A stretch of DNA of 64,000 nucleotides from Lachnospiraceae bacterium (lineage in GTDB: Bacteria; Bacillota; Clostridia; Lachnospirales; Lachnospiraceae). Made by a program: the position numbers and the translations under genes. The number at the start of each line of letters is the position of its first letter. Position 1 is the stretch's first letter. The DNA lies in NCBI GenBank assembly GCA_022792535.1, contig JAAWBG010000066.1, positions 1-64,000 of the forward strand, read 5' to 3'. Shown here one piece after another: positions 50,064 through 52,592 of this stretch. The notes under the pieces were generated by a model. That model ran no database searches. It was not told where the DNA came from and was given only the letters and a program-made list of their open reading frames with translations.

Positions 50064-50657
50064 TTGAATATCTATGGATATATTCGCGTCAGTAGTCACG
50101 ATCAAAATGAAGAACGTCAGGTAATCGCCTTAAAAGAAATGGGAATTGCAGAAAAAAACATCTATCTGGATAAACAATCCGGAAAAAATTTCAATCGGCC
50201 CCAGTACAAAAAACTATTGCGGAAACTAAAGGAAAACGATCTGCTCTATGTAAAAAGTATTGACCGTCTTGGCAGAAATTACGAAGAAATTTTGCAGCAA
50301 TGGCGTGTACTGACCAAAGAAAAAGCCGTGGATATCATGGTTCTGGACATGCCATTATTAGATACCCGAAGAGGCAAAGACCTGATGGGCACATTTTTAA
50401 GCGATATCGTTCTGCAGATATTATCCTTCGTTGCAGAAAATGAACGCACCAACATCCGTCAGCGCCAAGCGGAGGGAATTGCCGCCGCAAAAGCCAGAGG
50501 CGTTCAATTTGGACGTCCGCCAAAACCACTACCGGCAAATTTCCACAGCATATGCCAGCGATGGCAGCAAGGTGAAATTACTGGAACTACAGCTGCAAGA
50601 GAATGTGGGATGCCGCTGTCTACCTTCCGCTATCAGGCAGAAATTTTTTTCAAATAA
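50064..50657 (+). CDS. Small serine recombinase (Hin/Gin/Pin-type DNA invertase)
   Basis: From the TTG at 50064, preceded by AGGAGGAGG with normal spacing, the protein has 197 residues, close to the length of Hin/Gin invertases. It starts [11 protein letters not shown], placing the nucleophile at Ser10 as in this family. DRLGRN (about 66-71) is the conserved active-site arginine region. The long E helix ([35 protein letters not shown]) and a C-terminal helix-turn-helix ([22 protein letters not shown]) complete the layout. Its stop codon is 17 bp before a matching crossover site, and an inverted partner site lies 124 bp beyond that. A GTG start eight codons earlier is possible. Confidence 0.93.
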
Positions 50658-50674
50658 TATACAAGCAGCTGATA

Positions 50675-50698
50675 TACAGGAAAGTGTACTTTTTTGTA
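50675..50698 (+). repeat. Left crossover site of the invertible segment (IRL)
   Basis: The half-sites TACAGGAAAGT and ACTTTTTTGTA are dyad-symmetric (9 of 11 match) around a central GT at 50686-50687. This is the structure of a serine-invertase crossover site. Eighteen bases (50681-50698) are the exact reverse complement of 50823-50840. Confidence 0.85.
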
Positions 50699-50833
50699 TA
50701 TGAATACATCTTTTCACATTGAAGGGTATTATACCACACGATTTACATTTTTTCTACTCTCTATACTGAAAATACTCCCCAATAGTGCCAAAGTTTTTGT
50801 TGGTCTGTGTAAAAGTTTAAATTACAAAAAAGT
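50688..50833. promoter_or_regulatory. Predicted invertible promoter segment (146 bp)
   Basis: The DNA between the two crossover cores holds no gene. On the minus strand it carries TATAAT (50728-50733) with TAGAAA (50751-50756) 17 bp upstream, so transcription currently points left, into the 3' end of the recombinase gene. Inversion would move the -10 to about 50788-50793 on the plus strand, giving a start near 50800 and a leader of about 80 nt to the ATG at 50880. No equally good rightward promoter is seen in the present orientation. Confidence 0.75.
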
Positions 50834-50846
50834 ACACTTTTTCGTA
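50823..50846 (-). repeat. Right crossover site of the invertible segment (IRR)
   Basis: The half-sites TACAAAAAAGT and ACTTTTTCGTA flank a central AC at 50834-50835 on the plus strand, which is GT on the minus strand. The site is therefore in inverted orientation relative to 50675-50698, the arrangement that yields inversion rather than deletion. Confidence 0.85.
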
Positions 50847-50879
50847 ATTAATTATGTAGAAAGATTTGAGGAATTACTC

Positions 50880-52592
50880 ATGGAAAAAGTTAACTGGCCG
50901 GTAAAGAAAAAATTATTTGAATCTGAAAAACAGGATGTCATCGCCAATCTAAAAAGAAATTGGTATTTTCCCATTTCTGCAATGGCATTTTTCTTTCTAA
51001 GTGTTTCATTAAGCTTTGAATATTTTGCAGGGCTGCTGCTTGCTGTCACTGCTTCTATTTTAATATCTTCCAGAATCCCTTCCATATGGGCATATGCCAG
51101 ACAAAGCCACATGATAGTTCATGTTATCTCCATACTGACGGCAATCGGAACCTGTTGGAATGCAAAATACCTTTTTTATGCCATTTGGAGAGGATACCCA
51201 AAAGTTCAGGCATTAGAAAATAAGCTTTCCATACCATTTGATCTTCCGGCTGTTGTCAGTATATTTAGTGCCGCTGCCGCTTTGTGTTTTGTCTATTTCT
51301 GCACTCTCATATTTTGGAAAGAGATGACCCGAATCATTCAAAAAAACCGCATTTTCCATGATATCGCAGCCGCGGAATACCTTGTTTACGGTATGCTTCT
51401 CATCGTTTTCACTATTTTTATGATTGCTGTCTTTCTAAAAACAGATGCCTTTTATTCCAAAGGACACTTTTATAATATTATCTATAGCAGCGATTCCCCT
51501 TTCCTGATAAGCAGAAACGTCTATCTCAATTTAGTACATACACAAAATGACTTAAGGCAGCCTCTGTTTGCTGTATTTGCCTCTCCTTTTGCCGGTATTC
51601 CTTATTTACTTGTAAGAGCATTCAGATTACATCCAAATGCTCTGGTTACACAGGCTGTCCTTACAAATATCATTCAGATTATTCTTTTGCTTGCAGCTAA
51701 CTTTATGCTGACCCGCATGATGAAGCTCAATGCCATAAAACGCATTTGTTTTATGGTTCTAACTTACTGCACCTATACCACTCTGCTGTTTACGCTAATG
51801 ATGGAACAATATATCGTGGCATATTTCTGGCTGGTCTTTTGTATGTATCTTATTTCAGAAAATCGACGTCCTGAACGGATTGCCCTGTGGGGAGCCGGAG
51901 GCACTCTGCTGACCAGCATGGTTCTATTGCCCTTTATGTCGCAAAAATCACCCATAAAAAATTTCAAAGAATGGTTTCTGGATATGGTAAAATACGGACT
52001 TGAATTTGTGGCGCTTATGCTGGCATTCTGCCGATTTGACGTTATTTTTAATCTGAAGGCACAGATTTTCTCTTTTACCAGCTTTACCGGTCAAACTGTC
52101 GCCACATCAAACAAACTCTTTCAATACACCGCATTTATCCATAACTGTTTTGCAGCCCCAAAGGCAGGTACTGTCTCTGTAAAAGACTTTTCTGTTTCTG
52201 GGGAAAGTACTTTTATTTCCTGGCAGCTGAATCCTGTCTCCCATTTGGACATTATAGGGATTCTTATCTTTCTTCTGGTTATCATCAGCGCCATTCTAAA
52301 CCGAGATAAAATAAGCAGCCGTTTTGCAGCCGGCTGGGTTGGATTTTCTATCGTAATACTTTTTCTTTTGGGATGGGGTACAAGGGAAAATGGGCTGATC
52401 CTGTACTCCCTGTACTTTGGATGGGCTTTTCTTGTTTTACTTTTCCAGTTGGTGGAAAGAATTCAGGATAAACTGAACGTAACATTTCTTCTTCCGGTAA
52501 TCAGTATTGGAAGCGCTGCTGTACTGACGTCAGTCAATCTTCCTTCCATTCGGGAAATGATAGATTTCGCCATCGCTTACTTTCCAGTGTAA
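50880..52592 (+). CDS. Polytopic membrane protein, GT-C-like, under the invertible promoter
   Basis: I do not recognise a named family. From the ATG at 50880 (GAGG 10 nt upstream) the protein has 570 residues and about a dozen transmembrane helices. A large extracytoplasmic loop after the fifth or sixth helix contains SSDSPFLISRNVY and NDLRQPLF, an acidic, polar pattern like the catalytic first loop of lipid-linked GT-C glycosyltransferases. The next gene, 12 bp on, makes a polyprenyl-phosphate pentose donor, which supports a glycan-transfer role. A longer frame from 50694 crosses the right crossover site and is less likely to be used. Confidence 0.72.
   Translation: MEKVNWPVKKKLFESEKQDVIANLKRNWYFPISAMAFFFLSVSLSFEYFAGLLLAVTASILISSRIPSIWAYARQSHMIVHVISILTAIGTCWNAKYLFYAIWRGYPKVQALENKLSIPFDLPAVVSIFSAAAALCFVYFCTLIFWKEMTRIIQKNRIFHDIAAAEYLVYGMLLIVFTIFMIAVFLKTDAFYSKGHFYNIIYSSDSPFLISRNVYLNLVHTQNDLRQPLFAVFASPFAGIPYLLVRAFRLHPNALVTQAVLTNIIQIILLLAANFMLTRMMKLNAIKRICFMVLTYCTYTTLLFTLMMEQYIVAYFWLVFCMYLISENRRPERIALWGAGGTLLTSMVLLPFMSQKSPIKNFKEWFLDMVKYGLEFVALMLAFCRFDVIFNLKAQIFSFTSFTGQTVATSNKLFQYTAFIHNCFAAPKAGTVSVKDFSVSGESTFISWQLNPVSHLDIIGILIFLLVIISAILNRDKISSRFAAGWVGFSIVILFLLGWGTRENGLILYSLYFGWAFLVLLFQLVERIQDKLNVTFLLPVISIGSAAVLTSVNLPSIREMIDFAIAYFPV

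Follow-up and report, generated by a model that had tools for sequence, protein, structure and literature searches.

A predicted promoter-inversion cassette with a resolvase-like serine recombinase in a Lachnospiraceae bacterium

A small serine recombinase gene, a short segment bounded by two inverted crossover sites and an operon of two genes lie side by side in the 64,000-nucleotide stretch of Lachnospiraceae DNA analyzed here (the window). We consider it highly probable (roughly 0.87) that together they form a self-contained phase-variation cassette with an invertible promoter, which in the assembled orientation is OFF for the operon at 50880-53465. The anatomy of this module is conserved in a large part of the recombinase family, and the module inverts naturally in relatives; the window's own copy presumably flips as well, and transcription in this strain would change with it. 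We regard the module as a genuine switch of a known type whose design is unusual and standardized.

In the proposed mechanism, the serine recombinase would bind both 24-bp dyad sites, cut at the 2-bp GT core and turn the 150-bp segment between the sites. Exchange between inverted sites with an asymmetric core would give inversion and not deletion. In the ON orientation, the extended -10 promoter would face right and read through the right site into the operon of membrane-protein and UbiA genes; in the OFF orientation, which is the assembled one, it would read left, antisense into the recombinase 3' end. Inversion is presumably the work of the adjacent recombinase; the sites could also be used by another recombinase of the genome.

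Anatomy of the module in the window

The recombinase gene (Table 1) begins with a TTG codon preceded by GGAGG and runs for 197 codons plus a stop, an alternative GTG start at 50040 being given by the ORF listing. Its product carries a Resolvase N-terminal domain and the RVS motif and thus fits the small serine recombinases of the resolvase/invertase superfamily. Residues R8-V9-S10 are invariant in a 12-sequence alignment (A2), and the serine of this motif is presumably the catalytic residue.

Table 1. Location of the module and its component features in the window
Feature	Position	Strand	Remark
Island: recombinase, switch and operon	49951-53560		L182 lacks it between typA and the DUF4190-like gene
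Small serine recombinase, presumed invertase	50064-50657	+	197 aa; Pfam Resolvase, E 3.3e-31
Left crossover site, GT flanked by two 11-bp half-sites	50675-50698	+	Core 50686-50687
Invertible segment, cores included	50686-50835		Corresponding segment naturally inverted in relatives
Predicted promoter, TAGAAA-17-TGgTATAAT	50728-50756	-	Directed toward the 3' end of the recombinase gene; operon OFF
Right crossover site, same core inverted	50823-50846	-	Core 50834-50835
570-aa membrane-type protein, first operon gene	50880-52592	+	ORF; glycosyltransferase-like by context only
UbiA-family, decaprenyl-phosphate phosphoribosyltransferase-like enzyme, second operon gene	52605-53465	+	Pfam UbiA, E 3.2e-21

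As proposed in the initial annotation, the 197-codon recombinase ORF ends 17 bp before a 24-bp site made of two half-sites around a GT core, a second dyad site lies inverted downstream, and the cores delimit 146 bp; all of this was recovered in the sequence, the invertible segment measuring 150 bp with both cores counted. The left site reads TACAGGAAAGT GT ACTTTTTTGTA, and the reverse complement of the right site reads TACGAAAAAGT GT ACTTTTTTGTA. The two sites share 21 of 24 bases, their half-site symmetry amounts to 9/11 and 10/11 positions, and a repeat search returned an 18-nt inverted repeat with 100% complementarity (50681-50698/50823-50840). With a consensus pattern allowing up to three mismatches, these were the only two matches in the window, compared with a mean of 0.01 in 100 shuffles, none of which reached two. 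The matrix of the site family scored them at 35.8 and 35.1 bits, and the next-best match in the window reached 12.8 bits when the opposite-strand readings of both sites were set aside. A chance repeat was rejected as the origin of the pair in view of the pattern shuffles, the matrix scores and the family controls described below.

Between the cores, the leftward TATAAT at 50728-50733 reported previously was confirmed and has the extended -10 form, preceded by TGn and, 17 bp upstream, by TAGAAA. The -10 element starts 46 bp from the left core and, in agreement with the earlier description, the promoter faces the recombinase 3' end in antisense. When the segment is turned, the -10 element lies 86 bp before the operon ATG, which has GAGGA ahead of it. 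Inverted repeats flank this short segment, as in invertons, and the promoter inside is able, as far as the sequence tells, to face the downstream gene once inverted. Because 13 promoter-like sites are present in 49800-53700, near the 10.9 (sd 3.4) expected, the promoter of the window would be unconvincing without the evidence from the family; we regard it as probably active.

Related loci and natural inversion

Relatives were gathered from 29 genomes of the genus, of which 24 gave a match (30 loci taken from 50 places listed), from named genomes (the best 80 of at least 576 loci) and from 38 viral contigs, together with a few loci from a DNA search of family genomes. Eight of the 164 loci had no recombinase match and were left out, as were near-copies, loci without a stop and loci with short flanks, which left 142 distinct loci, 133 of them with enough downstream DNA. 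One locus left out of this count, L032, carries a 28-nt inverted repeat with a different core.

An inverted site pair was found downstream of the recombinase in 74 of the 133 loci, compared with 1/139 stretches directly upstream and 0/127 stretches about 1 kb past the stop (Fisher p about 4e-28 and 2e-28, respectively). By source, pairs were present in 57/72 named-genome loci (from the best 80 of at least 576), 10/26 loci of the own genus and 3/30 viral contigs, the remainder of the 133 being the window and the loci from the DNA search of family genomes; by identity to the window enzyme, they were present in 63/82 loci at 70% or more, 11/34 at 55-70% and 0/17 below 55%. The site matrix used for these counts was trained partly on the tested loci. 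A matrix trained on the named-genome loci alone detected 17/61 held-out loci, including the window, vs. 1/63 upstream controls, and a matrix-free measure (at least 17 of 22 matching bases) gave 53/133 downstream vs. 4/139 upstream and 5/127 distant stretches. In the group with at least 70% identity, most loci with a pair have the left core 22-23 bp past the stop, and the two cores are a median of 136 bp apart. The pair is absent in 19 of the 82 loci tested in this group: 12 of them have no matrix match above 6 bits within 1.5 kb, and seven have a single, weak, displaced or out-of-range site. On a tree built by a quick method, the switch-bearing enzymes cluster (18 changes vs. 41.7 in shuffles, 0/500 as low), with near-copies adding to the clustering. 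Pairs on viral contigs were limited in the first scan to L133, L135 and L138, and a second scan found none in the 48 loci with enough sequence among 68 new ones; therefore, viral contigs carry the module rarely at best.

The promoter is as regular as the sites. A lenient call in 72 locus groups placed it leftward (OFF) in 49, rightward (ON) in 17 and ambiguously in six. By a strict measure, the best promoter-like match starts 42-46 bp from the core that it faces in 47/72 groups (36 leftward, 11 rightward), compared with a mean of 2.4 and a maximum of 6 in 100 dinucleotide shuffles. Leftward and rightward promoters mirror each other, as inversion predicts.

Inversion itself is visible between related loci. 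The single-contig genome L302 and the loci L083, L093, L300 and L301 carry nearly the same module before the same gene, by its motifs presumably a C5-methyltransferase. L302 and L083 differ at 77 of 818 positions as they stand and at 2 of 818 after core-to-core turning, while L093, L300 and L301 differ from L083 by two or three as they stand. A second set, L053 vs. L055/L058, spans three genera according to the record titles. Its loci are 93-94% identical over the first 300 bp downstream, but the segments between the cores reach 85-87% identity only if turned, vs. 52-53% as they are, with the inner half-sites swapped between the two ends. The recombinase genes of this set are just 79-80% identical, so it does not represent a clean single-strain inversion. 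The exchange interval includes the GT core in both sets. The ON/OFF promoter switch postulated in the initial annotation, with the OFF state for 50880-53465, is supported by promoters facing both ways at a mirrored distance, by these inverted relatives and by the co-directional downstream genes described below.

A module that flipped once and has since been locked, leaving the window copy stuck OFF, is an unlikely alternative. It would agree with the single orientation (OFF) known for the window, with the existence of pair-less relatives and with a truncated recombinase relative in the same genome (C50, residues 51-167, without a site match); against it, the recombinase ORF is open and keeps the residues invariant in A2, and both sites retain their high scores of 35.8 and 35.1 bits.

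The truncated relative just mentioned (G000:C50:9999-10337; L172 3003-3356) covers approximately residues 50-167 at 74-78% identity, and no site match above 9 bits was found in the 6.5 kb examined; it looks like a decayed module. Two loci, L036 and L037 (records titled Ruminococcus turbiniformis and Lactonifactor longoviformis), have an identical recombinase, segment and 300 bp downstream, reflecting either recent transfer or near-identical genomes. By record titles, modules also occur outside Clostridia, in a Gastranaerophilales MAG (L062), which could be contaminated, and in Granulicatella seriolae (L041).

Kinship of the recombinase and its sites

Hin and Gin bring about inversion via a 2-bp core between dyad half-sites, and Hin needs an enhancer, the Fis-bound recombinational enhancer. 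The res site of Sin/Tn552-type resolvases consists of a crossover site and an accessory site. The initial annotation had described the window enzyme as Hin-sized and taken it for a serine invertase. Its size (197 codons) is indeed Hin-like, but its sequence stands closer to Sin/Tn552-type resolvases than to phage-type invertases. In a comparison with solved sequences, the nearest relative is Sin/Tn552 bin3 (115.8 bits), followed by gamma-delta resolvase (79.6 bits), both above the entries named DNA-invertase, 4m6f and 3uj3 (61.9 and 61.7 bits), which we take to be Gin; full-length Hin lay outside this comparison. The enzyme is like Hin and Gin in size, resolvase-type domain, the 2-bp core between dyad half-sites and its presumed inversion activity (for Hin, according to the accessible part of PMC11868660), but stands nearer to Sin and gamma-delta, and no element is conserved over the 40 bp beyond the right site.

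The kinship with resolvases extends to the site motif. A resolvase of an Enterococcus plasmid (L165), 51% identical to the recombinase, has a palindromic match to the switch site of 21.8 bits upstream of its own, intact gene, at 2309-2332; in 544,414 positions of control DNA, no match reached 21.8 bits and two reached 20 bits. This match is possibly the crossover site of the plasmid resolvase and, if so read, suggests where the switch enzymes came from. In the other four of the five plasmid and phage records with recombinase relatives (L165-L169), the best match was 17.7 bits in the plasmid relative L166 and 9.4 bits in L168, and L167 and L169 had none above 9 bits. Given the nearest solved relatives, Sin and gamma-delta, and the plasmid resolvase relatives with a site, the switch enzyme appears best described as a resolvase-clade recombinase acting as an invertase.

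The two sites could also be read as accessory or crossover sites of a resolvase, serving transposon or plasmid dimer resolution, with the promoter driving the recombinase or nothing. This reading would agree with the resolvases as nearest solved relatives and with the one strong site upstream of the plasmid resolvase gene. It is very improbable all the same: two single inverted sites lie downstream of the recombinase at near-constant spacing in dozens of loci, natural inversions are observed, and there are no transposases among the eight window proteins scanned around the recombinase. The switch family differs from Sin/Tn552-type resolvases, its nearest solved relatives, in having inverted single sites and inversion instead of a res site with an accessory site. 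No other matrix match of 13 bits or more is present in the window, and in 72 loci, compared over 40 bp on the outside of each site, sequence conservation does not extend beyond the right site; an accessory site of different sequence would have escaped notice. An accessory site of the same motif was rejected on these two grounds. Because the flanks of the sites lack conservation, the switch enzyme may need no accessory site.

The switched operon, other cargo and known systems

Among related loci, the longest open frame past the right site is on the plus strand in 50/61 (undecided in 11, minus in none), and the longest open frame upstream of the module is on the plus strand in 16, on the minus strand in 20 and undecided in 30 of 66. 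The downstream side is co-directional and the upstream side unbiased; therefore, the downstream operon is the likely client. A two-way toggle, in which turning the operon off would turn on the divergent DUF4190-like gene at the left flank of the island (49309-49842, minus strand), was considered, as this gene points the same way as the present promoter. We rejected it as highly unlikely on account of the missing upstream strand bias across the family. Moreover, a DUF4190-like gene occurs within 1.5 kb upstream of typA in 14/28 sister genomes (38-43% identity in three), with none in the typA flank examined in the other 14, and the positions that correspond to 49950 and 53561 of the window are separated by 140 bp in L182 vs. 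3.6 kb in the window. From this difference, the recombinase, the switch and the operon form an island.

The first operon protein has no match in Pfam, NCBIfam or PDB sequences. The UbiA enzyme passes the cut-off of NCBIfam NF008978 (213.8 bits, cut-off 207) and scores 224.9 bits with NF008977, below its cut-off of 234. The combination of a UbiA enzyme of phosphoribosyl-polyprenol type with a membrane-type protein suggests that the operon adds a lipid-linked pentose to a surface polymer, and switching it would change the surface glycan. The first gene is present in 1/29 genus genomes and 1/120 family-sample genomes, the window's own in both cases. In a DNA search of 299 family genomes for the operon, 12 gave any match and, besides the window, only G158, from another genus, matched both genes (47% and 68% identical), the orthologue of the 570-aa protein again preceding the UbiA gene. 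A gene for a HAD-type phosphatase follows the operon there, and neither a recombinase match nor a site was found in the 9.5 kb examined.

Elsewhere the cargo is different. Of 70 first downstream ORFs picked by script, 66 were scanned (L055, L071, L081 and L094 were left out). Among the first 25 of the 46 Pfam families listed, zinc ribbons were found in five ORFs, Eco57I methylase in four, LRR_5, GtrII, S-layer homology and MBOAT in three each, and C5 methylase, SNF2, PLD and GGDEF in two each; among the first 25 of the 88 PADLOC models listed, type II methyltransferase models matched up to four and the HKD+Snf2 model two.

Invertible promoters of gut bacteria, or invertons, were reportedly described by Jiang 2019. 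That study is cited in the accessible parts of PMC11868660 and PMC8987985 which, like those of PMC11892184 and PMC10333322, present invertible promoters as well known in gut bacteria; control of methyltransferases by such promoters is suggested in the part of PMC10333322 available to us. The window module resembles invertons: a short segment with an internal promoter lies between inverted repeats, close to a recombinase gene and upstream of presumed surface genes. The available part of PMC11892184 names tyrosine-type or site-specific integrases as the enzymes close to inverton groups, including group 139 with its mostly Clostridia-like genomes, and the word serine is absent from the main text of that paper; the window module, by contrast with the invertons described there, has a built-in serine recombinase at near-fixed geometry. 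Likewise, Clostridioides difficile has short clostridial invertible segments, Cdi1-7, two of which were shown to control adjacent genes and some of which are due to the RecV recombinase, but in the strain under study Cdi7 alone lies close to a recombinase gene (PMC5903667, accessible part). Our literature search, which had most subscription papers outside its reach, returned no account of a serine-recombinase switch cassette; an earlier listing of individual members in print is quite possible.

One predicted switch has thereby become a recognizable cassette family that can be sought in any genome by its site motif, promoter position and enzyme. In this family, a resolvase-type enzyme apparently serves as an invertase, and no accessory site has been detected to date. 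The cargo suggests that Clostridia may share a plug-in that randomizes both surface chemistry and phage defence, the latter represented by methyltransferase, Eco57I-type and SNF2/PLD genes. More speculatively, a portable cassette of a resolvase-derived recombinase and a promoter segment of about 110-150 bp with near-fixed geometry may have been placed before restriction systems, glycan genes and surface proteins of Clostridia, its OFF promoter firing antisense RNA into the recombinase gene; the state of the switch would then feed back on the flipping enzyme and bias cells to OFF. We hold this extended reading to be doubtful, though possible.

Near the island, the window also contains a 21-nt perfect hairpin (49048-49068/49077-49097), whose arm TTCCTATAAGA occurs with at most one mismatch at 10 places in the window vs. 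1.6 expected (49045-49283, 45437-45470, 25778-25843 and 27542); it is probably a dispersed repeat.
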